Below, one piece after another: positions 1,263 through 48,264 of a DNA stretch of 64,000 nt; position 1 is the stretch's first letter; every line of letters begins with the position of its first letter. The position numbers and the translations under genes were made by a program. Location: contig NC_067200.1 of assembly GCF_000699445.3 (NCBI RefSeq), positions 14,221,256 to 14,285,255 on the forward strand, in the 5' to 3' direction. The stretch comes from Schistosoma haematobium (lineage: Eukaryota; Platyhelminthes; Trematoda; Strigeidida; Schistosomatidae). The notes under the pieces were generated by a model that saw nothing but the letters and a program-made list of their open reading frames with translations, had not been told where the DNA came from and did not search any database.

Positions 1263-1264
<2 letters not shown>

Positions 1265-1296
<32 letters not shown>
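1265..1296. repeat. (TA)n microsatellite, unit 1
   Basis: 32 bp of pure TA. The copy in the next unit (5630-5661) has the same length, which supports very recent duplication because such runs mutate fast. Confidence 0.95.
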
Positions 1297-1301
<5 letters not shown>

Positions 1302-1437
1302 GTAGGATGGGAAGCATAACAACAGAACTTAATGGCTAAGAAAACTGTGTCCATTACCTTTCCTCGTCAAAACAGCATATCACATACTCGAAACAAATAT
1401 GTGTGTAAATATATCATTTCACTTTCTATATTTCCAG

Positions 1438-1473
1438 AAGAAGGAAGAAAGAACGCCAGAAGGAAAAATAAGG
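1438..1473 (+). CDS. Gene 1 36-nt micro-exon, unit 1 (a)
   Basis: Acceptor TTTCTATATTTCCAG, donor GTATTT (weaker than most here). Phase 1-1; encodes the strongly basic peptide [11 protein letters not shown]. Identical copy at 5803. Confidence 0.65.
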
Positions 1474-4400
1474 GTATTTATTAGTTGTGTGTGTAATCCA
1501 TGTTTCTTAAACTATTGATACCTTCCACACCATACATTGTTTCGACCGCTACGTTCGGCTCAATGCATTCATCATACATTGTTCATGCAAAACTGAACAA
1601 CATAACTGACACATCGGAACCGTATAATCTACTGTAAAACAAGTAGACCTTCGTCATTTTCCCAATGATCAGCAACACGTGTTGTCAAGAAAGTTACTAC
1701 ACGGACCAATATCAAGTAACACCAGATCAACTTCAAAAACATAGATGCCACGAAATAATCTGCCTGTCATCTTGTTTATCTATGTCGTCTTAAACAATTA
1801 ATTGGATGCCAATTGCACTCATGATAGGCTATTTATTTAAAGGGACCGTGAAAACACGTCTGAACAGTCTGAATCTTGAATATCTTTCAAAAAGCAGAAC
1901 ATCCAATCCATCCAGAAGCTTTTATTGTTATGTTTACATCATCACACATAACCACGAATTATCAATAGCATTCCAGATTAAATAATGTGTTCGAATGTAA
2001 TAGTCACTGTACACTGACTTGTTCTTGCAAATTATTTCTTGCTTTATTACAATATAATTAAAAGTCGGAATTTCGATTCTGCTCATACCACTCAGTGTTT
2101 GTTATTCGACTTCAAACAATAGTGTTGTTTCAACATGATCAGTAACTTGCCATACGGGATTCACCAAAGCGTCATGTGTAATTGATTGCTCACAACACAT
2201 AAAACGTTGAGAACAAAGAAAGTCAACATGTATATGTGACACTCAACAAATGGCTTGACATTAACTCTCCACTCAGGATGATAAATGAAATCAAAAATAT
2301 ACATTTTTCCTCAATAGAAGGTAGACAAAATGGGAAGGCGGATGGGCGAAAACGTAAGTGTATTTGCACACATTTCGTTTCAATTCAACTTCAGATAACA
2401 CGTTTCCACTCATTTGTTTACTAGAAGAAAGAGAATGTTTTCTGTAAATAACTGGAGAGTGATGTATACGTTGGTTAAACGTACTAGGGTCAGATTTTGG
2501 AAAAATGAAGTTTGAAGTGATTTTTGATCGAAATGAGGCGACGGTAAACCATGAACAAGAAGCCCACAAACGTCTACAAAGTTCATGAGAATATCTTACG
2601 CTCAATACTATTGAGCAGTAATAAGCATGAGATTATACAAACAAAGAAATGATCGTTGGGTAGTTGTGTTAAATTATGATCCGACAAACATCAATAATTG
2701 TTGTGAACTGATATCATGGGTGCTCTCACCTTTTATTCATGTCTGGTTAACCGACATACATTGAAATTCTATTGTGAATAGATGTGATTTCACTCGGATT
2801 GCCTACAATTTCTTTACCAGGAAAGCAAAGATTAAAAGCAAAAAGTAAGTGTTTTCATATTTCATACATTTGACTTAAACACACATGTTCAATTTTATTC
2901 GAAATGGCCTCCGACTTCCACTTGCGTTGATTCATTTCACATGCCATTCACGGTGACGGCTTCGCAAAGCCGCTCTCCCCACCTGTATTTCGCTTCTCAA
3001 GTAACACGTGAAATCGTAGTGATCAAACACTGTTTGACTAATTCCACGTTCAAGTGAGATCATGCAACTTTTGTGGAGAGGGTCAGTTCGTTCGAGTTCA
3101 TGCTTACTGATTGTTCTCATCAAGTCCGTAATAATTTCAAGACTACTTCAACATTTATTCGTGCACTGCAATACAAATAGTCCCCTAATTAACCATTTGT
3201 TCTCTTCAATTGATCGGAAGATACCCGTTTTGTGAGCTGTGAAAAAATCGTTTCTGATGTTTTTACTTCCCTCTCCTAAACTGATAAATTTTGCATCGTA
3301 TGTAAATGTAAAGCGAATAATGAATGATGTTGTTTAATTTTCACCATAGGAATTCGACAAGAAGAAGCAACTAAGCATGAAGAACAGAGTAAGTATTCCA
3401 ATGATTTTATTTAGAGTTCATTCACTTTTAATGTTCAGCTGGTATTCAGATATGTTTCCCAATCACCCGCATGCAACGAAAACACATGAAATATTCTGTG
3501 TGAAGATGCGTGTTATAGGTCGTTCCGTTCAAATGAACGATGTCGTCACTAAAGGATCTGGTAACACTGATTTTGTGCTTGAGTACCTTTCCGTGAAATC
3601 GTGTTCTCCAGGGTGAATGAACACACTGCTTTTGTTTTTAGGAAATTCCCAGTTCAAACTGTGTAAATTAGTGAGCTCTAGACCCACTTCCACGAGCGAT
3701 AAACGGTCAATTATGTCATTGTATAATCTGATGAATTCTTCTCCTCCATAACAACATGTCCAACCCCACACTGCATGTCGCCTATTTGACTGGCAGACAG
3801 CTTGATCGTGTCTTCATGACCACCGTTTTTTGTCAGTCACGTGAGAAAACGCACAAATTCCCACAATTCTAGTCTGTAATCAACGCTCTTCTGAATTACC
3901 TTGTTATTTTTGACAGCAATTAACGTTTAACCTTATAAGTATCAAATGTAAGAGTCATTCTCACCATAATAAAGCAGTAAGATATAATCAACTACAACTT
4001 TTCGGGGCGAAGATTTGTGGAGATTGTGGTACTTTTGACATTTGGATCCACGAGTCAATCTAAGCTGGACTACAAATGAAACCTGGAAGCACTGGACTGC
4101 CGTTTCGCACTGGTATGTGACTCCTCAGCAGTCGGCACTCACGATCTCGTACGCCGGATCCCAAACCAGGATACTCGGTCTCACGCGTCAACGCTCAACG
4201 TCTAGACTAGTGGACCTACATCAAATGGTGCTAATATTTAACCTCAAAATATAAATGATCTTGCACAACATTTCTTCCAATATCTGAAGCCGATAAATGC
4301 ATCAACCAGATACGGATTGAACTCCACTGGTCACGGCTTCTCACTAGAATTGCAGGAAGCAATTTTAATTGCATATTTTTAGTATAGGCTAGTTGAAATT

Positions 4401-5627
4401 AAAACATTGTCACGGTTCCCTTTGGTTCGTCACGCATGAGGATGGTGCACAAGTAATCTTGACTGTACGTATACTCATCGGTGAGCTTATTATCGTATCA
4501 CTTAATATCGCTTTCAAAGGCTCCAAGACTGACCTGCCGGGGACGTGATTCATTTCCTACGGGATGAGAAACTATTTACACTTGATTAGTCGATGATTAA
4601 TCACCAAGCTCCGCCAACTGCAACCACCATATCACGGTTCAACATTGCGCAGGTAATGTCGCGTAACTTATTAAAGGGATCACATTGCTAATCACTGTAT
4701 AGAATTCAATCAGACGAACGATAATTTTGACATAGAATAAATTGATTACCAATTGATGATTAATCAGTTTGAAGTGAGCATCAGTAATATGTGAGGTCGA
4801 TCACGATCCAATTAGCTCACTGGTACGGTGGTTGACTGTTACACTGTGCCACACGAGTTGTTTTCCGTAAAACACCTCAGTATCCTCAAATCTGTGGATA
4901 CACATTTCTGATGAGTGAAGAACTGCACGAAACATCAATCCATAGCAACTTGTCCACCACACTCAACTAACACAATTTCGCACCCCTATGTGTTATATGG
5001 TAGTTTGTGCCACTCAGGTTAGCGGCCAAAGAGCAACTTGATCGATGACATTCTACGAACATTAGAAACGTGTCATTTGCTGGACCGCTCAACACTTAGT
5101 GACCAGTCCGTGAGAAATGAAGAAATGAGTAGTGTAAAGTTTAGTGCGAATACACGTGTTCTTCTCAAACTAGTATGTGAACATGACAATAACGATAGTT
5201 TATGTGTTTCACACAATTCCTCTCTTAACTACTTGTTGGTTGTCTCATTGAACTGGTCGTAGTAGGAAATGAGTTTGCGAAATATATTTCCCAGTGCAAT
5301 ATTCGTGAGCCACCCTGAACATGCTGTTCAAATATACCATTTGCGATAATCTCCAGTATTTCTTCGAAGAGTTTAGGCAGAATCGACAATGAGCTATCAC
5401 TTATCGATACAGCGATTGCTGATACAAATACTTACATGTTGTTCGTGATACGTTTGCAACAAAATTTCTGTAAATCTAGCCGATATGGTAGTCATCCTCA
5501 CGTCCAAAATGTGGGTTTGAACACGCGTATTGCTTAATTCAGGTCCTGACATGAATTCGGAAGCATGAGATGGAAGAAAGATCAAAAATTCGCCTTAACA
5601 AATTACTCTGACTTCCTTATTCCAAAA

Positions 5628-5666
<39 letters not shown>

Positions 5667-8600
5667 GTAGGATGGGAAGCATAACAACAGAACTTAATGG
5701 CTAAGAAAACTGTGTCCATTACCTTTCCTCGTCAAAACAGCATATCACATACTCGAAACAAATATGTGTGTAAATATATCATTTCACTTTCTATATTTCC
5801 AGAAGAAGGAAGAAAGAACGCCAGAAGGAAAAATAAGGGTATTTATTAGTTGTGTGTGTAATCCATGTTTCTTAAACTATTGATACCTTCCACACCATAC
5901 ATTGTTTCGACCGCTACGTTCGGCTCAATGCATTCATCATACATTGTTCATGCAAAACTGAACAACATAACTGACACATCGGAACCGTATAATCTACTGT
6001 AAAACAAGTAGACCTTCGTCATTTTTCCCAATGATCAGCAACACGTGTTGTCAAGAAAGTTACTACACGGACCAATATCAAGTAACACCAGATCAACTTC
6101 AAAAACATAGATGCCACGAAATAATCTGCCTGTCATCTTGTTTATCTATGTCGTCTTAAACAATTAATTGGATGCCAATTGCACTCATGATAGGCTATTT
6201 ATTTAAAGGGACCGTGAAAACACGTCTGAACAGTCTGAATCTTGAATATCTTTCAAAAAGCAGAACATCCAATCCATCCAGAAGCTTTTATTGTTATGTT
6301 TACATCATCACACATAACCACGAATTATCAATAGCATTCCAGATTAAATAATGTGTTCGAATGTAATAGTCACTGTACACTGACTTGTTCTTGCAAATTA
6401 TTTCTTGCTTTATTACAATATAATTAAAAGTCGGAATTTCGATTCTGCTCATACCACTCAGTGTTTGTTATTCGACTTCAAACAATAGTGTTGTTTCAAC
6501 ATGATCAGTAACTTGCCATACGGGATTCACCAAAGCGTCATGTGTAATTGATTGCTCACAACACATAAAACGTTGAGAACAAAGAAAGTCAACATGTATA
6601 TGTGACACTCAACAAATGGCTTGACATTAACTCTCCACTCAGGATGATAAATGAAATCAAAAATATACATTTTTCCTCAATAGAAGGTAGACAAAATGGG
6701 AAGGCGGATGGGCGAAAACGTAAGTGTATTTGCACACATTTCGTTTCAATTCAACTTCAGATAACACGTTTCCACTCATTTGTTTACTAGAAGAAAGAGA
6801 ATGTTTTCTGTAAATAACTGGAGAGTGATGTATACGTTGGTTAAACGTACTAGGGTCAGATTTTGGAAAAATGAAGTTTGAAGTGATTTTTGATCGAAAT
6901 GAGGCGACGGTAAACCATGAACAAGAAGCCCACAAACGTCTACAAAGTTCATGAGAATATCTTACGCTCAATACTATTGAGCAGTAATAAGCATGAGATT
7001 ATACAAACAAAGAAATGATCGTTGGGTAGTTGTGTTAAATTATGATCCGACAAACATCAATAATTGTTGTGAACTGATATCATGGGTGCTCTCACCTTTT
7101 ATTCATGTCTGGTTAACCGACATACATTGAAATTCTATTGTGAATAGATGTGATTTCACTCGGATTGCCTACAATTTCTTTACCAGGAAAGCAAAGATTA
7201 AAAGCAAAAAGTAAGTGTTTTTCATATTTCATACATTTGACTTAAACACACATGTTCAATTTTATTCGAAATGGCCTCCGACTTCCACTTGCGTTGATTC
7301 ATTTCACATGCCATTCACGGTGACGGCTTCGCAAAGCCGCTCTCCCCACCTGTATTTCGCTTCTCAAGTAACACGTGAAATCGTAGTGATCAAACACTGT
7401 TTGACTAATTCCACGTTCAAGTGAGATCATGCAACTTTTGTGGAGAGGGTCAGTTCGTTCGAGTTCATGCTTACTGATTGTTCTCATCAAGTCCGTAATA
7501 ATTTCAAGACTACTTCAACATTTATTCGTGCACTGCAATACAAATAGTCCCCTAATTAACCATTTGTTCTCTTCAATTGATCGGAAGATACCCGTTTTGT
7601 GAGCTGTGAAAAATCGTTTCTGATGTTTTTACTTCCCTCTCCTAAACTGATAAATTTTGCATCGTATGTAAATGTAAAGCGAATAATGAATGATGTTGTT
7701 TAATTTTCACCATAGGAATTCGACAAGAAGAAGCAACTAAGCATGAAGAACAGAGTAAGTATTCCAATGATTTTATTTAGAGTTCATTCACTTTTAATGT
7801 TCAGCTGGTATTCAGATATGTTTCCCAATCACCCGCACGCAACGAAAACACATGAAATATTCTGTGTGAAGATGCGTGTTATAGGTCGTTCCGTTCAAAT
7901 GAACGATGTCGTCACTAAAGGATCTGGTAACACTGATTTTGTGCTTGAGTACCTTTCCGTGAAATCGTGTTCTCCAGGGTGAATGAACACACTGCTTTTG
8001 TTTTTAGGAAATTCCCAGTTCAAACTGTGTAAATTAGTGAGCTCTAGACCCACTTCCACGAGCGATAAACGGTCAATTATGTCATTGTATAATCTGATGA
8101 ATTCTTCTCCTCCATAACAACATGTCCAACCCCACACTGCATGTCGCCTATTTGACTGGCAGACAGCTTGATCGTGTCTTCATGACCACCGTTTTTTGTC
8201 AGTCACGTGAGAAAACGCACAAATTCCCACAATTCTAGTCTGTAATCAACGCTCTTCTGAATTACCTTGTTATTTTTGACAGCAATTAACGTTTAACCTT
8301 ATAAGTATCAAATGTAAGAGTCATTCTCACCATAATAAAGCAGTAAGATATAATCAACTACAACTTTTCGGGGCGAAGATTTGTGGAGATTGTGGCACTT
8401 TTGACATTTGGATCCACGAGTCAATCTAAGCTGGACTACAAATGAAACCTGGAAGCACTGGACTGCCGTTTCGCACTGGTATGTGACTCCTCAGCAGTCG
8501 GCACTCACGATCTCGTACGCCGGATCCCAAACCAGGATACTCGGTCTCACGCGTCAACGCTCAACGTCTAGACTAGTGGACCTACATCAAATGGTGCTAA

Positions 8601-11600
8601 TATTTAACCTCAAAATATAAATGATCTTGCACAACATTTCTTCCAATATCTGAAGCCGATAAATGCATCAACCAGATACGGATTGAACTCCACTGGTCAC
8701 GGCTTCTCACTAGAATTGCAGGAAACAATTTTAATTGCATATTTTTAGTATAGGCTAGTTGAAATTAAAACATTGTCACGGTTCCCTTTGGTTCGTCACG
8801 CATGAGGATGGTGCACAAGTAATCTTGACTGTACGTATACTCATCGGTGAGCTTATTATCGTATCACTTAATATCGCTTTCAAAGGCTCCAAGACTGACC
8901 TGCCGGGGACGTGATTCATTTCCTACGGGATGAGAAACTATTTACACTTGATTAGTCGATGATTAATCACCAAGCTCCGCCAACTGCAACCACCATATCA
9001 CGGTTCAACATTGCGCAGGTAATGTCGCGTAACTTATTAAAGGGATCACATTGCTAATCACTGTATAGAATTCAATCAGACGAACGATAATTTTGACATA
9101 GAATAAATTGATTACCAATTGATGATTAATCAGTTTGAAGTGAGCATCAGTAATATGTGAGGTCGATCACGATCCAATTAGCTCACTGGTACGGTGGTTG
9201 ACTGTTACACTGTGCCACACGAGTTGTTTTCCGTAAAACACCTCAGTATCCTCAAATCTGTGGATACACATTTCTGATGAGTGAAGAACTGCACGAAACA
9301 TCAATCCATAGCAACTTGTCCACCACACTCAACTAACACAATTTCGCACCCCTATGTGTTATATGGTAGTTTGTGCCACTCAGGTTAGCGGCCAAAGAGC
9401 AACTTGATCGATGACATTCTACGAACATTAGAAACGTGTCATTTGCTGGACCGCTCAACACTTAGTGACCAGTCCGTGAGAAATGAAGAAATGAGTAGTG
9501 TAAAGTTTAGTGCGAATACACGTGTTCTTCTCAAACTAGTATGTGAACATGACAATAACGATAGTTTATGTGTTTCACACAATTCCTCTCTTAACTACTT
9601 GTTGGTTGTCTCATTGAACTGGTCGTAGTAGGAAATGAGTTTGCGAAATATATTTCCCAGTGGAATTTTCTCCTCTTCCTAACGGATGAATTTTGCATCG
9701 TATGTAAATGTAAAGCGAATAATGAATGATGTTGTTTAATTTTCACCATAGGAATTCGACAAGAAGAAGCAACTAAGCATGAAGAACAGAGTAAGTATTC
9801 CAATGATTTTATTTAGAGTTCATTCACTTTTAATGTTCAGCTGGTATTCAGATATGTTTCCCAATCACCCGCATGCAACGAAAACACATGAAATATTCTG
9901 TGTGAAGATGCGTGTTATAGGTCGTTCCGTTCAAATGAACGATGTCGTCACTAAAGGATCTGGTAACACTGATTTTGTGCTTGAGTACCTTTCCGTGAAA
10001 TCGTGTTCTCCAGGGTGAATGAACACACTGCTTTTGTTTTTAGGAAATTCCCAGTTCAAACTGTGTAAATTAGTGAGCTCTAGACCCACTTCCACGAGCG
10101 ATAAACGGTCAATTATGTCATTGTTTAATCTGATGAATTCTTCTCCTCCATAACAACATGTCCAACCCCACACTGCATGTCGCCTATTTGACTGGCAGAC
10201 AGCTCAATTATGTCTGGATGGCCGCTTGTTTTCTTGTTGTATGTGATGTGAATATTCGAACTTTTTAAAGTTTACTTTTGCCACTGTTCCGTCGTTCATT
10301 ACCCACGTTCTCTCTAATATTCACACTAGTTTTATCAACTGAATAGCGTATTATTTTATTGGGCAGGTTTTTGAGTCTTCTGACATTCTTTTCATTGAAG
10401 CTCGCTTATGTGATTAACGTGCGGATTGTTGTTCAGATTACGTTGGTGTGATGAACGGCGCGTTAACACTTAGCGTGTGATATACATTCAAAACGCGCTA
10501 TAACTGTCTGTATTTTGGATTCACGAACATTTGTATGCAATCATTTGTCGACTGAAGCGGTATTAATCACTGGATAATAATAACACTCCATTGCTTCTCA
10601 TGTTGGAGAAAACACAGTTCTCTGGTAAGCGAACAGCGCTTGTGATAAAATCATTAATGAAAACACCGATCTCATGTGTCTGAGTAAAGAAGGAATGTAC
10701 AAGCAATAGTTGAGGCACATCAATCAGCAACATTACCTTAATAGACTAAATACAACATTAAAAAGTATGTTGGATTTGTATTGCATAGATCAATTCACAT
10801 ACTTGTTTTCATAATCTCCACTGTGAAGGCCACTCAGTTGCAATGAGTCACGTCGAAATCTGTCGGTGCACCGATGAAATAATGACAGCTTGCCATTTAC
10901 ATTCTCAGATACGGATTATTTACGCGCACAGTACTCTGACCGATTTCGATAAATAGCGCAGTACCAACTCACATTTAAATTTATCGCACAGGTTACAAGT
11001 TTTAGTGATGACAGGTGTTCATAATCGGATCATGGGAGTACATATTTGATCACATGTGCATACGGTTTCCGTAGAGTTGACCTGAAAATGTGTTGATATT
11101 CTAATCTTGCCGTGTGCATGAATTGGTATTCTAATAATCGGATGAAATTCGTCGCTAACCACTAGGGAATAAATTTTGTTTTGTGAAAACACTTGAAAAT
11201 TGATTAAATTTACATACATGCACAATTAGGATTCAGATTGGTGATCTTGTGGTTAGATGCTCGCATTCAGTTAGTTCACCATGAGAGCTATTCAGAAGTC
11301 TCATTCACAATGAAAGCAGCTGACTGTTAATCATCGTTCTAAATGATGTGTTGGCAAACATCAATCATTGACCTGAGCTAATATCGTGGGTGCTCCTACC
11401 TTTTATTCGTGTCTGGTTAACCAATAAACACTGAAGTTCTATTATGAATACATGTGATTTCAATTTGATTGCCTATAATTATTTCCTTAGGAAGACAAAA
11501 AATTATTGATGCTAGTAAGTCATTTTTGCGTTCCATGATTGTACTGTGTGACTGTTTTGAAAATGTCTTCAGTTTCTACATTTTCTTCGATGTGTTTTAT

Positions 11601-14600
11601 CTTAATTTGAAGATTGTTTTTTCGATTGTGCTTTTTTCGATGTATCTCCATGTTTGTCGTCCTTGATATTGTGTGTTATGTCAACTTGTTTCATTTAACA
11701 TTTTTCATTTATTAGTGGATCGAAGAACATATATTATGAATTTGGTTGGTTAGTCGGCTTATTTTTCAGAATTTTTTATCAGTTCTATTACATTTCCTTG
11801 ATAGGTGTTTCTTGTTTTTCATCGACATTCCCATTACATTTTATGCAACATGAATTTTGCTCATGGGGAGAATTAACGTAAATAGTGATATTGCAGCGAT
11901 TTTTCTGTTTCTCATGTCTTTTCATATGAATATGATGACATGTCTTTAAAAGCGGTTTTAAATAGCCATCAATATCAGTATCATCTTCGTTATGAACAAC
12001 AGGGCGTCTGTTTCACTTTTAATTATAAACACTCCGAACACTTTGCTTTTCATACACACATAAATTACTTATATATTGCTGGAACATTCTATTCATAATA
12101 GCATAACTTTTGTTTTTATACTAAAGGTGGAGCGTCAGGAAGATCTGATATACAAATACCACGTAAACGATGATATGTTACTTATACTGATCTATTTACA
12201 TGCATCATATACACTTTGCAAGATAGCTATGATTAAATTCCACATTATTGACTGATTCGTTCAAACAAACTGCAGAAATCCATAGGTCATTTTGTAGCTT
12301 GTCAGTCAACAATTGTGCATAGCGACTGCTCAAGTGACCATCGAACCCATAAGTCTCAGATGTCCCTACGTAGTGATTCGATTGATAATGTTGTGGTGTG
12401 TCTCTCACTTGTATACTCACATCAGCAAAACAACAGTTAATTTGCCTTCGAAAAATTTCCACTACCATTTCAATAGGAAATAAAATGATTTCACACAAGT
12501 AGTTCTAGGTGGTTATTACGTTTAATAAATTAATGAACGGGCAAAGACCTCGTCGCTTCTGTTTATAATAATTACAAACATAACAAACGAGTATATCATG
12601 TCAAAGTACTCCACGTCCCCAAGAATTGCGGACAACCCGAGATATTCCTTAATACCAGGTTTCACACTTTAGGCAAAATGAGTATTGCAAGGTAGAATTT
12701 TCTGTATGACACATCTTCCATTGACAACGCAAGATTCACAAATTATTTCATTGGACTGCGTTAATGCTTGATCCCTTGAAGTATGTGATAAGTATTCTAG
12801 ACTAATAATATTAACCATAAACATCATCTTCAGTTCTGGTTAATACATAATCAGCACAGATGTTTGTTGTCAGCAAAATCTAGTTAGTAAGTGGAATATA
12901 GCTCTTCAATAGTCAAGTGTACCCCGAGTAAAATCAATGAAATTATTTGTTGAAAGTTTCATACCGATAGTTTCGGTATTTTACATACATTTACGCAACT
13001 ACTTATTTGCTCTATTATAGGTCGTTATTTTGACACGATTTCCGCAAATAAATAGTGTTATTCATATGTAAAAAGTAACACGTAGTATGATCACGTATAT
13101 AGTTTTGAATAATGCTATGTACAACAATGTTTTTCATTTGAATACTTTTATAGAGTCCTACATAATCGTCAACAAAACCGCCGAAAGTACGTGTTCGTTG
13201 CAGTTAATGTTTTCTTAAATGTTTCTGCACGAAAATACTATATTGTCTGCAAGGTAGTTCCGTTTGAATTCTAACGGTTGACAGATTGAAAGCACCGTCA
13301 CTCTGTTCCTTAGACTTGTTAAATCCGGGGGAAGATTAAATCACGAGTAACTTCTGAGACATTAATTAATATTATCTACACATTCTTATGGTATAACGTT
13401 TCAATAACTAGATGATGTATATTCATATTCCTCTTATTATAAGTCTCATTTTGACCTATAATTTATTATTGTACGATTTACTGTTCGTAAGCTATGTTCA
13501 GTTTATTGACTACTGTCTCCCACGTTCACAGACACCTTTTGGCCTTATTGTGTACAAATGTTATTTCCTTTTGTATGGTGCGTTGCGGTCTGTTCTATTG
13601 ATATATAAACCCAGTATGTCTGAAATAAATGATTCAACTCGGTTCGCATAGTGGAAGCTGGTATTGCTGTTCTGGACTCAGGTGGACGGGCTAGGCGGAC
13701 ATAGGACTAATAAGGACGCTAGGCTGCTCATACCGGTCGGACGTCATTGGTTTGACACAGTGCTAGGATTGCATAAGTCACACTTTGATTGGTGGATAAA
13801 TCACGTGATAACTAGCCGAAAATAAAGTGCTAACAAAACCAACTTCATGAAAATTAAAAAGGAACACTTGTTGAAAAAATGTACAAGATACGCATTGTGC
13901 TTTGCGAAAAGTGCCTTTTGCGATTGATCTTTTAAACAGGATGATGTTTATCTCAATAAGTAGGAATCATAAGCCAAACTGTATTTTATCAGTTTATTTA
14001 TTCAAATTATTCTAGTATAAACTATCTCTGACAAGTGGTGGTAGATGTTGAATGAGATCAGTTGTGGATATTTGCAGTTACTATGACCTCGACAACACCT
14101 CGAAATTATGAAGAATCTAGTGTCTGAATTACATGAGAATCTCTTATTTGACTCGTTCTGCATATGAATTTCATTGATGTCAACGATCACTTGATGATGG
14201 CTTTTGCCCAGTATTTTACGATCAGACAACAAAGTGACGAACGTGATTTCAGAGTATACGATAAAAGGCTAACGTTTGATAAATCCAACATCTGATGATA
14301 TAATTTACAACTCGGACAACGAACACATGCACACGATTATAGAGAATCGGCGAAAATAACCACAACTTCGTTCGATTAACTGTTAAACGTCTTGAAAGTA
14401 AACACTCTTTTGAAACGTTAGGTCTTATTTTGAAATGATTTATGGTTACTTACTTACTTAATTACTCTTGCTGCTCCTCGTGGAGTAGTAAGGGCCGCGC
14501 ACCAGCATTCTCCATCCAACCTTGTCCTAGGCAATCATTTCCAGCTCCTTCCAGCTAATATTCATCCTTTTCATATCCACTTCTATTTCCCGACGTAATG

Positions 14601-17600
14601 TCTTCTTCGGCCTTCCTCTTTTCTGCTTCCCTTCACGACTCCAAGCTAGGGCTTTCTTCGTAGTACAGTTTGATGATTTGCAAAATGTATGTCTCATCCA
14701 TTTCAATCGTCTTTTCTTAATTTCTTCTTCAGCTGGAAGCTGATTTGTTCTCTCCCACAGTAGGCTGTTGCTGATATTATCAGTCCAATGGATGTTGAGG
14801 ATCCTGCGTAGACAACTATTTATCAATACTTGTACATGTTTGATGATGGTTGTAGTAGTTCTCCAAGTTTCAGCTTCGTACCGTAGAACTTTCTTGACGT
14901 TCGTATTGAGGGTTCTGAACTTGATAGTGGTTAGCAGTTGTTTTGAGTTCCATATGTTCTTCAATTGTATGAATGCGGCCCTTGCTTTGACAATCCTCGC
15001 CTTTACGCATGCATCTGATCCTCCTTTTTCATCGATGATGCCTTCCAGGTATGTGTAGGATTCCACATCGTCCAGAGATTCGCTATCAAGAGTGACTGGA
15101 TTGGTGTTCTTCGTTTCGAATTTGAGGACCTTGGTTTTCTTCATGTGTATGCTGAGGCCTACTGATGCAGAGACTGCTGCTACACTGGCTGTCTTTATCT
15201 GCATTTGTTCATGTGTATGCGATAGGAGGGCTAGGTCATCTGCGAAGTCCAAATCGTCCAATCGATTCTGAGCTGTCCATTGTATTCCGTGTATTCACTC
15301 AAATGCCAAAGTCTTCATTATCCAGTCGACCATCAGAAGAAAGAGGAAGGGAGATAGTAAACAGCCTTGTCTGACTACGGTCCTTACTTGGAATGCGACT
15401 GTCGGTTGTCCTCCATGCACGACCTTGCACTGTAGTCCCTCGTATGAGTTCCGGAAAAGATCGACAATCTTCTCAGGAACTCCGCAGTGAAGAAGAAGTT
15501 TCCATAACGTCCTCCCATCGGACAACGAACACATGCACACAATAATAGAGAATCGGCGAAAATAACCACAACTCCATTCGATCAACTCTTAAATGTCTTG
15601 AAAGTAGATACTCTTTTGGAACGTTAAACCCTATTGTGAAATGATTCATGGTCACTGTTTATAATAACACAATCTATTATACTTTGTTCCATTTAGCTAT
15701 TAAATCTGAACAACGAAGGAAAGATGCTCTAGGTATATGTTAGCAATATTTGACATTATTATTATTCGATGTTTATTTTGTAGATGATTCATAGTTGCCA
15801 AATATTCACCTTATTACTAGACACTGTGTTACATAAGAATAACCCAGTGAATAAATTGTTTTGAATCTCATACCTGTTTGATAATATTACACAACAGTTC
15901 TCAATTAACATTCGAATGGATGCTGATCATAAGCTATCCTATTGAAGTGAACTATGTCTATACGTTCAAACACTGAGGAGACATAGTTTGTTTTATACAT
16001 TATCCTATCACATAAAATCATACAACCCGATGATATTTTATTTCTCTCATTTGATAATCAATCAACAACTACTTTCGACTTCAGTGTTCGACCAATCATT
16101 CTCATTGTTATGTTCACTAAATAATATAATCATGTAAATAACATTGATATTCCTCATCTTTAAACTTCATCTTACTCACAAACTCAGCACAGTGTGGAAT
16201 ACTATTATTTGTAATAGAGGTCGACTGATCGTTCCCACCCAACACCTATAGCTTACATTTATTCTCAGAAGTAGCAAATCAAGTTGAAAGATTCGCTTTC
16301 CGTTTAAGATTGGTCATTATATTTGGAATTGAAACCTCTTTGAACTAACAAAGATCATATGCACAACTGAATACTTTAAATTGCTCAACTTCAACGAATC
16401 GAGCGTCGTAGATGTGATGAACATCAATAGAAACCTGCACTGCAGAATATGACTAGTCATAACAATAGCCTAACCAAGCACAATATCACAAACTATTTTG
16501 TAGATACCCTTTGCTTCACTGTCATCATGACAAATGGTTTAAAAGTAGCAATTTAAACACACCGAAAATACATTTTTATAATACACGATACGTTATTGTT
16601 TCAGTTGACGCTTTCTCTTACTCAGTTGATTTGACTTCCAAAATTTGATATTTCCCATGAAACAAATGAACGTAGATCCTCAAACGCATTCTTAATTTCG
16701 TTTTTCTGTTTACAGCGGCCAGATTGTATCATATAAAGCAATCTATCAGTATGTTATATAAACACTTGCATTTTTGATCATTACGTATTTAGTCATATTT
16801 GAATACCTCTTGCAATGGGTACTATTTGGATTAATTCGAAACTCTTATGGAAGCTTCTAACAGTGATGATACCGCTGCTCAGTATATTTCAAACGTTTAT
16901 GCTAACTGTTCTATACACATATATTATAAGTGATTATAGTTCCTAGATGATAAACCATAAACACACATCTGAGCTGTTCTACGCATTTCGACAAAGTTTA
17001 AAGCTTCACATATCTTTTTCTTTGCTGTTTCAGATACTATAGATAGAAGTGGAAATAACCATGCTTTGGGTAAAATTAACTACATATGGATTTAAATAAT
17101 TATATTTTCATAATAACCGTAAATTGGGATTCATCATACGTATATTCAGGATGTATGAAATTTAAAACATCCATAACCTGTGGAGGAAAATCAATAAGGT
17201 TGCGCTTTCATTCTGTATAACGAAAGAAATAAAACCAGCTAAAGATGTCTGATGTCGTCTCACAAACAATTTGACACTGTGAACGTGTCAACGTTTAAAT
17301 AGTGTACACATCTGCATGGATTGCAAACGCCTTGAGATGATCCAAGAAACCACTTGTGATGTGGTCCATTCGAGTATGGTTGATTTGCTGAAAGCACGAG
17401 GATCGTTCAGGTCTACGAACTACACACATCCACTCCCGACCACTGCAATATTCACATTTAATGTAGCAGTCACATAGCATAATAGATGATAGTTTCAGTT
17501 CACGTGTCCACACCTTACAATTCAAATGAATCACATTCGTTTGATGAAACCATTGTGAAGATGATCACTCACTCTTAAGAATTGCAAATTAATTCTGCAT

Positions 17601-20600
17601 TTCAAATGGAAATTTTATCACCAACTACATCGTCCACATTGTCCACTCACTACAAATATTTCAGAAGTGAATGAGAAAATTGATGGGGAAGGTCAGTCAA
17701 TTCATGTTCGCCTTAATAGTCGTGCAGACTGCCTCGATCAAAACTTTATGCTAACTGTTCTATACACATATATTATAAGTGATTATAGTTCCTAGATGAT
17801 AAACCATAAACACACATCTGAGCTGTTCTACGCATTTCGACAAAGTTTAAAGCTTCACATATCTTTTTCTTTGCTGTTTCAGATACTATAGATAGAAGTG
17901 GAAATAACCATGCTTTGGGTAAAATTAACTACATATGGATTTAAATAATTATATTTTCATAATAACCGTAAATTGGGATTCATCATACGTATATTCAGGA
18001 TGTATGAAATTCAAAACATCCATAACCTGTGGAGGAAAATCAATAAGGTTGCGCTTTCATTCTGTATAACGAAAGAAATAAAACCAGCTAAAGATGTCTG
18101 ATGTCGTCTCACAAACAATTTGACACTGTGAACGTGTCAACGTTTAAATAGTGTACACATCTGCATGGATTGCAAACGCCTTGAGATGATCCAAGAAACC
18201 ACTTGTGATGTGGTCCATTCGAGTATGGTTGATTTGCTGAAAGCACGAGGATCGTTCAGGTCTACGAACTACACACATCCACTCCCGACCACTGCAATAT
18301 TCACATTTAATGTAGCAGTCACATAGCATAATAGATGATAGTTTCAGTTCACGTGTCCACACCTTACAATTCAAATGAATCACATTCGTTTGATGAAACC
18401 ATTGTGAAGATGATCACTCACTCTTAAGAATTGCAAATTAATTCTGCATTTCAAATGGAAATTTTATCACCAACTACATCGTCCACATTGTCCACTCACT
18501 ACAAATATTTCAGAAGTGAATGAGAAAATTGATGGGGAAGGTCAGTCAATTCATGTTCGCCTTAATAGTCGTGCAGACTGCCTCGATCAAAACTTTATGC
18601 TAACTGTTCTATACACATATATTATAAGTGATTATAGTTCCTAGATGATAAACCATAAACACACATCTGAGCTGTTCTACGCATTTCGACAAAGTTTAAA
18701 GCTTCACATATCTTTTTCTTTGCTGTTTCAGATACTATAGATAGAAGTGGAAATAACCATGCTTTGGGTAAAATTAACTACATATGGATTTAAATAATTA
18801 TATTTTCATAATAACCGTAAATTGGGATTCATCATACGTATATTCAGGATGTATGAAATTTAAAACATCCATAACCTGTGGAGGAAAATCAATAAGGTTG
18901 CGCTTTCATTCTGTATAACGAAAGAAATAAAACCAGCTAAAGATGTCTGATGTCGTCTCACAAACAATTTGACACTGTGAACGTGTCAACGTTTAAATAG
19001 TGTACACATCTGCATGGATTGCAAACGCCTTGAGATGATCCAAGAAACCACTTGTGATGTGGTCCATTCGAGTATGGTTGATTTGCTGAAAGCACGAGGA
19101 TCGTTCAGGTCTACGAACTACACACATCCACTCCCGACCACTGCAATATTCACATTTAATGTAGCAGTCACATAGCATAATAGATGATAGTTTCAGTTCA
19201 CGTGTCCACACCTTACAATTCAAATGAATCACATTCGTTTGATGAAACCATTGTGAAGATGATCACTCACTCTTAAGAATTGCAAATTAATTCTGCATTT
19301 CAAATGGAAATTTTATCACCAACTACATCGTCCACATTGTCCACTCACTACAAATATTTCAGAAGTGAATGAGAAAATTGATGGGGAAGGTCAGTCAATT
19401 CATGTTCGCCTTAATAGTCGTGCAGACTGCCTCGATCAAAACTTTATGCTAACTGTTCTATACACATATATTATAAGTGATTATAGTTCCTAGATGATAA
19501 ACCATAAACACACATCTGAGCTGTTCTACGCATTTCGACAAAGTTTAAAGCTTCACATATCTTTTCTTTGCTGTTTCAGATACTATAGATAGAAGTGGAA
19601 ATAACCATGCTTTGGGTAAAATTAACTACATATGGATTTAAATAATTATATTTTCATAATAACCGTAAATTGGGATTCATCATACGTATATTCAGGATGT
19701 ATGAAATTTAAAACATCCATAACCTGTGGAGGAAAATCAATAAGGTTGCGCTTTCATTCTGTATAACGAAAGAAATAAAACCAGCTAAAGATGTCTGATG
19801 TCGTCTCACAAACAATTTGACACTGTGAACGTGTCAACGTTTAAATAGTGTACACATCTGCATGGATTGCAAACGCCTTGAGATGATCCAAGAAACCACT
19901 TGTGATGTGGTCCATTCGAGTATGGTTGATTTGCTGAAAGCACGAGGATCGTTCAGGTCTACGAACTACACACATCCACTCCCGACCACTGCAATATTCA
20001 CATTTAATGTAGCAGTCACATAGCATAATAAATGATAGTTTCAGTTCACGTGTCCACACCTTACAATTCAAATGAATCACATTCGTTTGATGAAACCATT
20101 GTGAAGATGATCACTCACTCTTAAGAATTGCAAATTAATTCTGCATTTCAAATGGAAATTTTATCACCAACTACATCGTCCACATTGTCCACTCACTACA
20201 AATATTTCAGAAGTGAATGAGAAAATTGATGGGGAAGGTCAGTCAATTCATGTTCGCCTTAATAGTCGTGCAGACTGCCTCGATCAAAACTTTATGCTAA
20301 CTGTTCTATACACATATATTATAAGTGATTATAGTTCCTAGATGATAAACCATAAACACACATCTGAGCTGTTCTACGCATTTCGACAAAGTTTAAAGCT
20401 TCACATATCTTTTTCTTTGCTGTTTCAGATACTATAGATAGAAGTGGAAATAACCATGCTTTGGGTAAAATTAACTACATATGGATTTAAATAATTATAT
20501 TTTCATAATAACCGTAAATTGGGATTCATCATACGTATATTCAGGATGTATGAAATTTAAAACATCCATAACCTGTGGAGGAAAATCAATAAGGTTGCGC

Positions 20601-22779
20601 TTTCATTCTGTATAACGAAAGAAATAAAACCAGCTAAAGATGTCTGATGTCGTCTCACAAACAATTTGACACTGTGAACGTGTCAACGTTTAAATAGTGT
20701 ACACATCTGCATGGATTGCAAACGCCTTGAGATGATCCAAGAAACCACTTGTGATGTGGTCCATTCGAGTATGGTTGATTTGCTGAAAGCACGAGGATCG
20801 TTCAGGTCTACGAACTACACACATCCACTCCCGACCACTGCAATATTCACATTTAATGTAGCAGTCACATAGCATAATAGATGATAGTTTCAGTTCACGT
20901 GTCCACACCTTACAATTCAAATGAATCACATTCGTTTGATGAAACCATTGTGAAGATGATCACTCACTCTTAAGAATTGCAAATTAATTCTGCATTTCAA
21001 ATGGAAATTTTATCACCAACTACATCGTCCACATTGTCCACTCACTACAAATATTTCAGAAGTGAATGAGAAAATTGATGGGGAAGGTCAGTCAATTCAT
21101 GTTCGCCTTAATAGTCGTGCAGACTGCCTCGATCAAAACTTTATGCTAACTGTTCTATACACATATATTATAAGTGATTATAGTTCCTAGATGATAAACC
21201 ATAAACACACATCTGAGCTGTTCTACGCATTTCGACAAAGTTTAAAGCTTCACATATCTTTTTCTTTGCTGTTTCAGATACTATAGATAGAAGTGGAAAT
21301 AACCATGCTTTGGGTAAAATTAACTACATATGGATTTAAATAATTATATTTTCATAATAACCGTAAATTGGGATTCATCATACGTATATTCAGGATGTAT
21401 GAAATTCAAAACATCCATAACCTGTGGAGGAAAATCAATAAGGTTGCGCTTTCATTCTGTATAACGAAAGAAATAAAACCAGCTAAAGATGTCTGATGTC
21501 GTCTCACAAACAATTTGACACTGTGAACGTGTCAACGTTTAAATAGTGTACACATCTGCATGGATTGCAAACGCCTTGAGATGATCCAAGAAACCACTTG
21601 TGATGTGGTCCATTCGAGTATGGTTGATTTGCTGAAAGCACGAGGATCGTTCAGGTCTACGAACTACACACATCCACTCCCGACCACTGCAATATTCACA
21701 TTTAATGTAGCAGTCACATAGCATAATAGATGATAGTTTCAGTTCACGTGTCCACACCTTACAATTCAAATGAATCACATTCGTTTGATGAAACCATTGT
21801 GAAGATGATCACTCACTCTTAAGAATTGCAAATTAATTCTGCATTTCAAATGGAAATTTTATCACCAACTACATCGTCCACATTGTCCACTCACTACAAA
21901 TATTTCAGAAGTGAATGAGAAAATTGATGGGGAAGGTCAGTCAATTCATGTTCGCCTTAATAGTCGTGCAGACTGCCTCGATCAAAACTTTATGCTAACT
22001 GTTCTATACACATATATTATAAGTGATTATAGTTCCTAGATGATAAACCATAAACACACATCTGAGCTGTTCTACGCATTTCGACAAAGTTTAAAGCTTC
22101 ACATATCTTTTTCTTTGCTGTTTCAGATACTATAGATAGAAGTGGAAATAACCATGCTTTGGGTAAAATTAACTACATATGGATTTAAATAATTATATTT
22201 TCATAATAACCGTAAATTGGGATTCATCATACGTATATTCAGGATGTATGAAATTCAAAACATCCATAACCTGTGGAGGAAAATCAATAAGGTTGCGCTT
22301 TCATTCTGTATAACGAAAGAAATAAAACCAGCTAAAGATGTCTGATGTCGTCTCACAAACAATTTGACACTGTGAACGTGTCAACGTTTAAATAGTGTAC
22401 ACATCTGCATGGATTGCAAACGCCTTGAGATGATCCAAGAAACCACTTGTGATGTGGTCCATTCGAGTATGGTTGATTTGCTGAAAGCACGAGGATCGTT
22501 CAGGTCTACGAACTACACACATCCACTCCCGACCACTGCAATATTCACATTTAATGTAGCAGTCACATAGCATAATAGATGATAGTTTCAGTTCACGTGT
22601 CCACACCTTACAATTCAAATGAATCACATTCGTTTGATGAAACCATTGTGAAGATGATCACTCACTCTTAATAATTGCAAATTATTTCTGCAATTTTTAA
22701 CCAACCATATCGTCTTTTTTGTTGATTTATCATAAATATTTTAGAAACGAACCAGCAAATTGGTGGATTAGTTTGGTAA
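1438..22779 (+). CDS. Micro-exon gene 1 (3' part; spliced; 29 inferred exons)
   Basis: Inferred spliced coding region of a micro-exon gene; the first exon and signal peptide lie upstream of the window. Exons: 1438-1473, 2318-2353, 2821-2844, 3350-3388, 5803-5838, 6684-6719, 7187-7210, 7716-7754, 9752-9790, 11491-11514, 11716-11748, 12127-12162, 13154-13186, 15697-15732, 16716-16748, then 36-nt exons at 17034, 17883, 18732, 19580, 20429, 21278, 22127 alternating with 27-nt exons at 17665, 18514, 19363, 20211, 21060, 21909, then 22745-22779 with TAA. All internal exons are multiples of three and open in phase 1; every junction codon is sense. The joined product has about 316 residues in the window, is hydrophilic and charged: basic blocks ([22 protein letters not shown]), acidic/Gln blocks ([12 protein letters not shown]), then a repeat of [21 protein letters not shown]. 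Schistosome MEG products are mostly secreted and variably spliced; a similar role here is inference. I do not recognise which MEG family it is. Confidence 0.72.
2318..2353 (+). CDS. Gene 1 36-nt micro-exon, unit 1 (b)
   Basis: Acceptor ACATTTTTCCTCAATAG, donor GTAAGT. Phase 1-1; encodes [11 protein letters not shown]. Identical copy at 6684. Confidence 0.72.
2821..2844 (+). CDS. Gene 1 24-nt micro-exon, unit 1 (c)
   Basis: Acceptor AATTTCTTTACCAG, donor GTAAGT. Phase 1-1; encodes KQRLKAK. Related by sequence to the 24-nt exons at 11491 and 52823, so this exon class is older than the array. Confidence 0.75.
3350..3388 (+). CDS. Gene 1 39-nt micro-exon, unit 1 (d)
   Basis: Acceptor AATTTTCACCATAG, donor GTAAGT. 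Phase 1-1; encodes [12 protein letters not shown]. Copies at 7716, 9752 (gene 1) and, diverged, at 51129 and 61293 (gene 2). Confidence 0.78.
4050..4235 (-). mobile_element. tRNA-derived SINE with hammerhead core, unit 1
   Basis: Read on the - strand this matches the layout of the schistosome SINE family that carries a hammerhead ribozyme: a box B-like GGTTTGGGATCC, then the catalytic core CTGAGGA (4122-4128) and GAAAC (4102-4106), followed by the stem I partner CAGTGC and a conserved tail. The two core boxes are intact but stem II (GTCAC against GTGC) and stem III (CGG against CAG) are mismatched, so self-cleavage is doubtful. It lies antisense in an intron of gene 1. Confidence 0.7.
5630..5661. 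repeat. (TA)n microsatellite, unit 2
   Basis: Copy of the TA run at 1265, same length of 32 bp. Confidence 0.95.
5803..5838 (+). CDS. Gene 1 36-nt micro-exon, unit 2 (a)
   Basis: Second copy of the exon at 1438, same splice signals and same peptide, 4,365 bp downstream. Confidence 0.65.
6684..6719 (+). CDS. Gene 1 36-nt micro-exon, unit 2 (b)
   Basis: Second copy of the exon at 2318, 4,366 bp downstream, with donor GTAAGT retained. Confidence 0.72.
7187..7210 (+). CDS. Gene 1 24-nt micro-exon, unit 2 (c)
   Basis: Second copy of the exon at 2821, 4,366 bp downstream, splice signals unchanged. Confidence 0.75.
7716..7754 (+). CDS. Gene 1 39-nt micro-exon, unit 2 (d)
   Basis: Second copy of the exon at 3350, 4,366 bp downstream, splice signals unchanged. 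Confidence 0.78.
8416..8601 (-). mobile_element. tRNA-derived SINE with hammerhead core, unit 2
   Basis: Copy of the 4050-4235 SINE carried along by the 4.37-kb duplication; core boxes at 8468-8494. It did not insert independently. Confidence 0.7.
9752..9790 (+). CDS. Gene 1 39-nt micro-exon, unit 3
   Basis: Only exon left in the deleted third unit; identical to 3350-3388. The deletion removes the three other exons but, because all are multiples of three, the frame is unaffected. Confidence 0.78.
11491..11514 (+). CDS. Gene 1 24-nt micro-exon
   Basis: Acceptor AATTATTTCCTTAG, donor GTAAGT. Phase 1-1; encodes RQKIIDA. Orthologous position in gene 2 is 52823 (KQRLIDA). Confidence 0.78.
11716..11748 (+). 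CDS. Gene 1 33-nt micro-exon
   Basis: Acceptor TTTTTCATTTATTAG, donor GTTAGT. Phase 1-1; encodes [10 protein letters not shown]. The gene 2 match at 53048 has the same length, phase and donor but a different peptide, so the frame has been kept while the residues changed quickly. Confidence 0.7.
12127..12162 (+). CDS. Gene 1 36-nt micro-exon
   Basis: Acceptor TTTTTATACTAAAG, donor GTAAAC. Phase 1-1; encodes [11 protein letters not shown]. Identical in gene 2 at 53459. Confidence 0.7.
13154..13186 (+). CDS. Gene 1 33-nt micro-exon
   Basis: Acceptor TTGAATACTTTTATAG, donor GTACGT. Phase 1-1; encodes [10 protein letters not shown], including an N-K-T glycosylation sequon. Gene 2 match at 54487. 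Confidence 0.75.
13405..13840 (+). mobile_element. Solo-LTR-like sequence in gene 1 intron
   Basis: Contains GTACAAATGTTATTTCC, a TATA motif (GATATATAAACC, near 13600), an AATAAA near 13623 and a downstream block with CTGGACTCAGG. A related sequence lies at 32330-32640 and the gene 2 paralogue at 54740-55160. The order promoter then poly(A) signal in one short non-coding block, without any gag or pol, fits a solo LTR. Ends are approximate and no target duplication was found. Confidence 0.5.
14312..14450. repeat. 139-bp direct repeat left of SR2-like insertion (gene 1)
   Basis: Matches 15518-15656, same length, roughly 12% different by eye. The two copies flank the retroelement exactly, so they look like an unusually long target-site duplication. 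Confidence 0.8.
14451..15517 (-). mobile_element. SR2/RTE-like non-LTR retrotransposon, 5'-truncated (gene 1 intron)
   Basis: The - strand carries the 3' part of an RTE-clade reverse transcriptase: the [12 protein letters not shown] motif, the catalytic FADD box ([12 protein letters not shown], ending near 15215), then the thumb and C-terminal region ([27 protein letters not shown]). The open frame is broken near 15300 at the junction of the QGC and FADD parts, so it is dead. The element ends in a TAAG-type tail at the left edge. It is truncated within the polymerase at the right edge (GRTLWKLL region). Confidence 0.88.
15518..15656. repeat. 139-bp direct repeat right of SR2-like insertion (gene 1)
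   Basis: Partner of 14312-14450; ends 40 bp before the 36-nt exon at 15697, so the insertion landed very close to an acceptor site without destroying it. Confidence 0.8.
15697..15732 (+). CDS. Gene 1 36-nt micro-exon
   Basis: Acceptor ACTTTGTTCCATTTAG, donor GTATAT. Phase 1-1; encodes [11 protein letters not shown]. Gene 2 match at 57036 ([11 protein letters not shown]). Confidence 0.75.
   Translation, partial: LLNLNNEGKML
16716..16748 (+). CDS. Gene 1 33-nt micro-exon
   Basis: Acceptor TTTTTCTGTTTACAG, donor GTATGT. Phase 1-1; encodes [10 protein letters not shown]. Identical in gene 2 at 58114. Confidence 0.75.
17034..17069 (+). CDS. 849-bp unit 1, 36-nt micro-exon
   Basis: Acceptor TTTTTCTTTGCTGTTTCAG, donor GTAAAA. 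Phase 1-1; encodes [11 protein letters not shown]. The best acceptor tract in the window, conserved in all copies. Confidence 0.82.
17665..17691 (+). CDS. 849-bp unit 1, 27-nt micro-exon
   Basis: Acceptor ACTACAAATATTTCAG, donor GTCAGT. Phase 1-1; encodes VNEKIDGE, joined by a Glu codon to the previous exon and by an Asp codon to the next. Confidence 0.75.
17883..17918 (+). CDS. 849-bp unit 2, 36-nt micro-exon
   Basis: Copy of 17034-17069, identical exon and splice signals. Confidence 0.82.
18514..18540 (+). CDS. 849-bp unit 2, 27-nt micro-exon
   Basis: Copy of 17665-17691, identical exon and splice signals. Confidence 0.75.
18732..18767 (+). CDS. 849-bp unit 3, 36-nt micro-exon
   Basis: Copy of 17034-17069, identical exon and splice signals. 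Confidence 0.82.
19363..19389 (+). CDS. 849-bp unit 3, 27-nt micro-exon
   Basis: Copy of 17665-17691, identical exon and splice signals. Confidence 0.75.
19580..19615 (+). CDS. 849-bp unit 4, 36-nt micro-exon
   Basis: Copy of 17034-17069; the acceptor tract is one T shorter than in the other units, which might weaken its use. Confidence 0.8.
20211..20237 (+). CDS. 849-bp unit 4, 27-nt micro-exon
   Basis: Copy of 17665-17691, identical exon and splice signals. Confidence 0.75.
20429..20464 (+). CDS. 849-bp unit 5, 36-nt micro-exon
   Basis: Copy of 17034-17069, identical exon and splice signals. Confidence 0.82.
21060..21086 (+). CDS. 849-bp unit 5, 27-nt micro-exon
   Basis: Copy of 17665-17691, identical exon and splice signals. 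Confidence 0.75.
21278..21313 (+). CDS. 849-bp unit 6, 36-nt micro-exon
   Basis: Copy of 17034-17069, identical exon and splice signals. Confidence 0.82.
21909..21935 (+). CDS. 849-bp unit 6, 27-nt micro-exon
   Basis: Copy of 17665-17691, identical exon and splice signals. Confidence 0.75.
22127..22162 (+). CDS. 849-bp unit 7, 36-nt micro-exon
   Basis: Last copy of 17034-17069, exon and splice signals intact although the unit diverges soon after. Confidence 0.82.
22745..22779 (+). CDS. Gene 1 terminal coding exon (candidate)
   Basis: Sits where the 27-nt exon would be in unit 7, after acceptor CATAAATATTTTAG, but the sequence has diverged. In the incoming phase 1 it reads [10 protein letters not shown] and then TAA at 22777-22779. 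An internal GT at 22776 could instead splice to an acceptor with a strong pyrimidine tract at 23032; that junction codon would be TGA, so the protein would end at nearly the same place. An AATAAA follows at 23115. The 3' end is therefore inferred at 22.8-23.15 kb. Confidence 0.5.
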
Positions 22780-23114: not shown

Positions 23115-23120
23115 AATAAA
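23115..23120 (+). terminator. Poly(A) signal of gene 1 (candidate)
   Basis: AATAAA about 335 bp after the predicted stop codon and 83 bp after a strong acceptor (TTTCTTTCTTCTTTTTAG, ending 23032). In AT-rich DNA such a hexamer is common, so position relative to the predicted stop is the main argument. Confidence 0.4.
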
Positions 23121-48220: not shown

Positions 48221-48222
48221 AC

Positions 48223-48229: not shown

Positions 48230-48264
48230 GTGGTAACGCTGTTGGTTTAAAGCACTTGAAAACA

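Follow-up and report, generated by a model that had tools for sequence, protein, structure and literature searches.

A 64,000-nucleotide stretch of the Schistosoma haematobium genome, here called the window, very likely contains two neighboring, tandem paralogous micro-exon genes (MEGs): gene B, which is a MEG, and gene A, in which two cassettes have recently been multiplied. Both genes are on the forward strand. Gene A extends from the left of the window to 22779, and gene B, which has the same architecture, begins at 48265 and runs off the window beyond 64000. A sequence-only reading had assigned the gene A region to the schistosome micro-exon gene class, with phase-1 symmetrical exons and two tandem arrays. 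This assignment is borne out by an S. haematobium protein that splices the paralog, gene B, with all nine junctions as listed, and the coordinates (1438 to 22779) and phase given for gene A proved correct upon rechecking.

Comparison of the window with itself revealed that the region from 9.7 to 17.6 kb recurs at 51.0 to 59.0 kb in three pieces that are 93%, 95%, and 98% alike. Eight of the 12 distinct internal blocks of gene A have a counterpart at the homologous place in gene B, with AG and GT intact in both genes, and seven of these eight shared exon positions are spliced in the deposited protein MS3_00011136. A second copy of the start of gene B was not found in the window; the 5' end of gene A lies beyond the window edge.

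Gene B and its deposited protein

The exons of gene B and their junction bases were listed before any database search, and the signal peptide was judged by eye. Within the window, the gene as predicted comprises a first exon and 15 phase-1 micro-exons (16 exons):

48223, + strand: TATA-like motif TATATAAG, ~40 bp upstream of the first exon
48265 to 48313, + strand: first exon, 49 nt, with ATG, hydrophobic and signal-peptide-like, phase-1 donor
48548 to 48583, + strand: 36-nt exon, in MS3_00011136
49216 to 49251, + strand: 36-nt exon, in MS3_00011136; copy at 59380 to 59415
51129 to 51167, + strand: 39-nt exon, in MS3_00011136; copy at 61293 to 61331
52823 to 52846, + strand: 24-nt exon, in MS3_00011136
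53048 to 53080, + strand: 33-nt exon, in MS3_00011136
53459 to 53494, + strand: 36-nt exon, in MS3_00011136
54487 to 54519, + strand: 33-nt exon, in MS3_00011136
57036 to 57071, + strand: 36-nt exon, in MS3_00011136
58114 to 58146, + strand: 33-nt exon; MS3_00011136 runs 14 residues past its donor
58433 to 58468, + strand: 36-nt exon, absent from the deposited protein
59174 to 62603, + strand: second copy of 49010 to 52439, with 0 of 3430 bases different; carries exons 59380 to 59415 and 61293 to 61331
62788 to 62814, + strand: 27-nt candidate exon, from splice signals only
63388 to 63423, + strand: 36-nt candidate exon, from splice signals only, weak donor
63943 to 63966, + strand: 24-nt candidate exon, a diverged relative of the 27-nt array 2 exon of gene A, with the acceptor moved 3 nt

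None of the 16 listed exons ends in T, and all 120 possible forward joins are sense. The two identical 3430-bp stretches reflect either duplication in the very recent past or a mistake in the assembly.

The exon pieces of gene B, with an X at each junction, were queried against ~5.8 billion predicted proteins. Three candidates yielded one match, MS3_00011136, a 155-residue hypothetical protein of S. haematobium (E value of 1.9e-61). It agrees with the listed gene in nine of nine exon peptides and nine of nine junction residues, and between 48265 and 58146 all nine listed micro-exons are present in it and all 15 phase-1-open blocks left off the list are absent. The last 14 residues of the protein match the window sequence that follows 58146 up to a stop, and at the homologous place in gene A a stop falls after nine of those 14 read-through residues. 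Because the 14-residue read-through cannot be encoded by gene A, MS3_00011136 is gene B itself.

The deposited protein (48196 to 58190) starts 23 residues upstream of the listed start, at 48196, and reads over the TATA-like motif; this start ATG is probably wrong. The protein is probably also truncated, ending by read-through of the donor after 58146, and more exons appear to follow. Its tag suggests that MS3_00011136 belongs to the Shae.V3 gene set, all predicted isoforms of which have RNA-Seq support according to its authors, in an excerpt of PMC8846543. The name MS3_00011136 was not found in the open-license literature. A Pfam search returned nothing above the cut-offs; the better of its two rows was a conotoxin model, over residues 1 to 46, that scored 18.3 bits where 25.1 was required.

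Exons and cassette arrays of gene A

Gene A had been read as 29 blocks with acceptor and donor, about 15 of them distinct. The 28 internal blocks do have both signals (AG before and GT after in 28 of 28), with lengths of 24 to 39 nt that are divisible by three, and all 28 are stop-free in phase 1. The 29th is a terminal block with an acceptor, no donor, and a TAA, and the number of distinct blocks must be corrected to 12 internal and one terminal. Every junction codon is sense, as had been claimed (406 of 406 possible forward joins, terminal block included), because T is the final base of none of the 28 internal blocks. The two arrays of near-identical cassettes, with their ends, account for 22 of the 28 internal exons, and the remaining six are single blocks between the arrays. 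The arrays had been credited with at least nine and 14 exons; the 14 of array 2 resolve into 13 internal exons and one diverged terminal block. The features of gene A are as follows:

1 to 4365, + strand: array 1, unit 1, 4365 bp, with four micro-exons; differs from unit 2 by 3 substitutions and 3 one-base indels (4364 bases)
1438 to 1473, + strand: 36-nt exon, array 1, from splice signals only, weak donor; counterpart not found in gene B
2318 to 2353, + strand: 36-nt exon, array 1, from splice signals only; like 1438, found only in gene A
2821 to 2844, + strand: 24-nt exon, array 1; upstream intron 82 to 83% like those of 11491 and 52823
3350 to 3388, + strand: 39-nt exon, array 1; counterpart of 51129 in gene B
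4366 to 8731, + strand: array 1, unit 2, 4366 bp
5803 to 5838, + strand: 36-nt exon, array 1, unit 2
6684 to 6719, + strand: 36-nt exon, array 1, unit 2
7187 to 7210, + strand: 24-nt exon, array 1, unit 2
7716 to 7754, + strand: 39-nt exon, array 1, unit 2
8732 to 9662, + strand: array 1, partial unit 3, the first 931 bp of the unit with 0 differences
9689 to 10204, + strand: 516-bp exon-4 end of the array 1 unit, after partial unit 3
9752 to 9790, + strand: 39-nt exon, third copy; counterpart 51129 in MS3_00011136
11491 to 11514, + strand: 24-nt exon; counterpart 52823 in MS3_00011136
11716 to 11748, + strand: 33-nt exon; counterpart 53048 in MS3_00011136; more diverged than the other seven shared exons
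12127 to 12162, + strand: 36-nt exon; counterpart 53459 in MS3_00011136
13154 to 13186, + strand: 33-nt exon; counterpart 54487 in MS3_00011136
15697 to 15732, + strand: 36-nt exon; counterpart 57036 in MS3_00011136
16716 to 16748, + strand: 33-nt exon; counterpart 58114 in MS3_00011136
16896 to 22671, + strand: array 2, six complete copies of an 849-bp unit (one of them 848 bp) and a seventh that breaks off at 683 bp
17034 to 17069, + strand: 36-nt exon, array 2; counterpart 58433, absent from the deposited protein
17883, 18732, 19580, 20429, 21278, and 22127, + strand: starts of further 36-nt array 2 exons
17665 to 17691, + strand: 27-nt exon, array 2; diverged relative in gene B at 63943
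18514, 19363, 20211, 21060, and 21909, + strand: starts of further 27-nt array 2 exons
22745 to 22779, + strand: terminal exon, a diverged copy of the 27-nt exon with the donor gone, reading to TAA at 22777 to 22779
23115 to 23120, + strand: AATAAA, which we take to be a possible poly(A) signal of gene A

Each 4.37-kb unit of array 1 thus holds four splice-bounded blocks, of 36, 36, 24, and 39 nt, and each 849-bp unit of array 2 holds two, of 36 and 27 nt. Because array 1 starts right at the edge of the window and may extend further left, the number of copies counted for it is a minimum. Within each array the exon copies are identical, except for the diverged terminal copy. Copies of the array 2 unit differ from one another by 0 to 2 substitutions per 849 bases; at one column they show the shared-variant pattern T C T T T C C, and one copy has a private deletion and a private substitution. 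With 3 substitutions and 3 indels per 4364 bases in array 1 and 0 to 2 per 849 in array 2, against 4.4% in the introns compared between genes A and B, the array units appear to be recent or homogenized. Copies of the 849-bp unit in genes B and A differ at only 3 to 5 of ~713 bases, and this near-identity despite 4.4% intron divergence suggests later exchange between the genes. The likeness of the intron upstream of 2821 to those of 11491 and 52823 is apparently the mark of an older duplication.

The donors of 4 of the 12 distinct blocks (1438, 12127, 15697, and 17034) fall below the cut-off of the loosest splice-signal scan described below; for two of these, 12127 and 15697, the gene B model uses the same donors to splice the counterpart exons. 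The distinct peptides of the listed internal exons (terminal peptide left out) are 36 to 39% charged and contain no cysteine or tryptophan.

The sequence-only reading had also supposed that the gene may not be in any gene model. This is not so for gene B, which has a (truncated) protein record, and it stands for gene A, for which no protein of its own was found in the lengths searched. A 220-residue gene A query produced 50 candidates and a single match, the gene B protein (lengths of ~121 to 385 amino acids covered), and a 345-residue query produced 7450 candidates and no match (~190 to 604 amino acids covered); shorter or longer gene A proteins would escape both searches. Homology to the spliced gene B suggests that gene A is expressed.

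Chance, divergence, and rival explanations

To the claim that chance would not keep length, phase, and openness together, a shuffling test gave a qualified answer. Duplicate units were removed, blocks of 18 to 42 nt with acceptor- and donor-like ends were scored at three thresholds, and the counts were compared with those from 100 dinucleotide shuffles; the scoring weights were set by hand after the sequence was seen, and the test is therefore not blind. The phase-1-open blocks among those of length divisible by three, from the loosest to the strictest threshold, were as follows:

Gene A, + strand: 8 of 11, 8 of 8, and 5 of 5; shuffle means 3.5, 1.7, and 0.8, maxima 10, 6, and 3
Gene A, - strand: 2 of 5, 0 of 1, and 0 of 1
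Gene B, + strand: 9 of 11, 8 of 8, and 6 of 6; shuffle means 3.4, 1.5, and 0.9, maxima 8, 5, and 5
Gene B, - strand: 2 of 3, 2 of 2, and 2 of 2
19-kb region between the genes, + strand: 3 of 4, 1 of 2, and 1 of 1
19-kb region between the genes, - strand: 6 of 9, 3 of 5, and 1 of 3; shuffle means 5.3, 2.4, and 1.2

Gene A thus exceeded every shuffle at two of the three thresholds and fell within the shuffled range at the loosest, and gene B exceeded every shuffle at all three. When the duplicates were kept and blocks of 9 to 60 nt were counted throughout the window, length alone was not enriched on the + strand (47/44/36, 27/25/25, and 53/47/33 blocks with length residues 0/1/2 modulo 3).

The loosest scan recovered 17 of the 28 gene A blocks and 8 of the 15 gene B micro-exons, together with 46 unlisted phase-1-open blocks, 23 in gene A (16 distinct) and 23 in gene B (15 distinct). 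Because the signals admit as many unlisted as listed blocks, the exon list owes part to judgment. Splice signals alone would not carry the claim of a gene; the paralog and the protein match do. A terminal T occurs in 27 of the 46 unlisted blocks and in 5 of 36 unlisted donor-like hexamers, compared with 0 of 28 listed ends in gene A and 0 of 16 in gene B. We gave T-free exon ends no weight as evidence, since the listing was not blind to this feature. One block of 21 nt (3642 to 3662, 8008 to 8028, 10044 to 10064, 51421 to 51441, and 61585 to 61605) has a strong acceptor, ends in T, and was dropped as an exon. Joined to the next listed exon, it makes a stop at four of its five places, and the gene B protein skips it; this conserved block could be a decoy or poison exon.

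Between genes A and B, 333 of 7579 intron bases differ (4.4%). The eight shared exons differ at 35 of 270 bases, compared with 145 of 2286 in nearby introns. One pair, 11716 to 11748 and 53048 to 53080, differs at 15 of 33 bases, with 24 of 299 in its flanks, and retains frame and splice dinucleotides; without it, the shared exons differ at 20 of 237 bases and their flanks at 121 of 1987. Over the shared exons, pS is 0.132 and pN is 0.131, with 21 of 89 residues different. Positive selection on the exons was considered and rejected: the excess comes mostly from exon 11716, and overall pN equals pS. From this comparison, we claim weak constraint on the exon sequence rather than selection. The equality of pN and pS gives no sign of protein-level constraint, and a decaying or functionless gene A would be expected to look alike.

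This equality speaks for a rival reading, in which gene A is silent or decaying, its tandem growth is ordinary satellite-like duplication within dead introns, and its micro-exons are passengers. Also in favor of this reading, no protein of gene A was found in the lengths searched (~121 to 385 and 190 to 604 amino acids), and the 2.77-kb tandem array nearby, in three copies, carries no listed exon. Against this, all 28 internal blocks are intact, and the 270 shared exon bases contain no indel, although only ~0.4 would be expected from 12 gap events in ~7,850 aligned bases. The missing model says little, for MEGs are hard for automatic annotation, as stated in an excerpt of PMC10526429. We consider a silent gene A unlikely. 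That the arrays themselves, or the 3430-bp duplication, are assembly artefacts, with fewer cassettes at the true locus, seems to us quite unlikely. The shared-variant pattern of array 2, with the private deletion and substitution in one copy, and the six places at which array 1 units differ speak against artefact, whereas the 0 of 3430 differences within gene B speak for it, as does the making of Shae.V3 from Nanopore reads with later gap filling (an excerpt of PMC8846543), if the window derives from Shae.V3.

Two further explanations concern how the blocks would be used, or whether they are exons at all. Tandem exon copies inside one gene recall Dscam-like arrays, in which one copy is chosen per transcript; here the copies are identical in their exons, so that a choice would not diversify the product, and all exons are symmetrical, so that any number can be included, which makes such an arrangement very improbable. 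We give next to no credence to the idea that there is no gene and that splice-like blocks line up by chance in AT-rich repeat DNA. The loosest-threshold gene A count within the range of 100 shuffles, the lack of enrichment for length alone over the whole window, and the 46 unlisted phase-1-open blocks beside the listed ones are what chance would produce, but the gene B protein match refutes it for nine gene B exons and, by homology, for 7 of the 12 distinct gene A blocks. The reading of the window as two paralogous MEGs, one with recently multiplied cassettes, is the one that we prefer.

Known micro-exon genes, proposed mechanism, and neighboring elements

In the excerpt of PMC7653826, MEGs are defined by at least seven exons, of which at least half are micro-exons (<70 nt, divisible by three), with a run of at least four. 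Both predicted genes have this exon pattern: gene A shows an unbroken run of 28 internal micro-exons, and 15 of the 16 exons of gene B are micro-exons. MS3_00011136, as mapped here on the window, has 10 exons and 8 internal micro-exons in a row. MEGs also have a longer exon at the 3' flank and yield protein variants by skipping exons; the last coding exon of gene A reaches TAA at 22777, with AATAAA at 23115, and the 3' end of gene B lies past the window. Excerpts of PMC4350168, PMC4671649, and PMC10526429 further describe MEGs as genes whose first exon encodes a signal peptide, whose introns are long, and whose micro-exons are for the most part symmetrical and can be skipped without loss of frame; MEG paralogs lie in clusters. 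Genes A and B resemble the schistosome genes MEG-1, MEG-2, and MEG-3 in their long introns, in symmetrical micro-exons that could be skipped with the frame kept, and in clustered paralogs. High dN/dS is reported for MEGs (PMC4350168, in excerpt), with some values above 1 (excerpts of PMC4350168, PMC4671649, and PMC10526429). MEGs have 10 to 20 exons per gene, according to the excerpt of PMC10526429, whereas within the window gene A already has 28 internal exons plus the terminal exon.

Duplicated exons have been described in MEGs before. The S. mansoni 10-3 antigen (MEG-4) has tandemly repeated 81-base exons (PMC4015677, through the title of a 1988 paper that it cites) and is like gene A in having coding exons tandemly repeated in a MEG. 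Its repeats are of 81 bases, whereas the gene A units consist of two or four different micro-exons of 24 to 39 nt with their introns; an 81-base repeated exon of the 10-3/MEG-4 type was not found among the repeated exons here, which are 24 to 39 nt. In MEG-26.2 and MEG-26.4, an internal duplication doubles the exon-length pattern and gives a repeated motif of two helices (PMC5825161, in excerpt), and in MEG-3 there is one transposon-linked exon duplication event (excerpt of PMC4350168). Those cases amount to a repeated motif and a single event, whereas gene A has two full units plus parts in one array and six plus a part in the other, 99.8 to 100% alike. As far as the literature was searched, what is new is the presence in one gene of two arrays of near-identical cassettes, each with several exons and their introns, together with the number of its exons and the less expanded paralog. 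A MEG with multi-exon cassette arrays was not found in the open-license literature, which is no proof of absence.

The exon copies of Dscam are diverged, and no diverged alternative copies of that kind were found in the gene A arrays, where the copies are identical and all in frame together. The arrays of Dscam are likewise tandem exon arrays that feed splicing, but their exons are mutually exclusive (PMC1397879, in excerpt).

We propose that unequal exchange or a similar tandem duplication multiplies the two multi-exon cassettes of gene A and that the spliceosome joins a variable subset of the phase-1 exons. Any listed exon or cassette could be skipped without a break in frame, and no join among listed exons would make a stop, because no listed exon ends in T. 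Because the copies are identical, a choice among array copies would change nothing, and only copy number would count. The number of cassettes in the genome and the number skipped in splicing would together set the length of the repeat region, which would be charged, cysteine-free, and probably disordered, in a secreted protein. Both the start of gene B and the MEG class suggest secretion; the class alone suggests disorder and a role at the host interface. Possible, but in our view doubtful, is DNA-level antigen variation atop splicing, in which cassettes would be gained or lost by unequal exchange, their numbers would differ among worms, and splicing would count them, yielding a graded ladder of secreted repeat proteins.

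Schistosomes are believed to use MEGs to vary their exposed proteins, and in the literature searched the growth of MEGs by exon duplication is described in single cases only. This locus appears to catch the process recently, with a mostly single-copy paralog beside one that has near-identical two- and four-exon cassettes, and it yields exact coordinates at which cassette number can be compared between worms and between transcripts. A worm could alter the length of a secreted protein by gain, loss, or skipping of identical blocks.

Rfam and tRNA scans of the window returned no matches. A third tandem array, at 35147 to 43561 between the genes, has three copies of a ~2.77-kb unit that are ~0.3 to 0.8% apart (gaps aside) and carry no listed micro-exon. 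A reading frame at 27446 to 28150 (- strand) resembles, by eye, a reverse transcriptase of another, non-LTR type. Reverse-transcriptase fragments lie antisense in the same intron of both genes (14503 to 15506 and 55842 to 56845, - strand). These fragments are 73% like longer reading frames at 45.6 to 46.6 kb (44934 to 46721, + strand) and are flanked by 139-bp direct repeats (14312/15518 and 55651/56857) that are ~88% alike.
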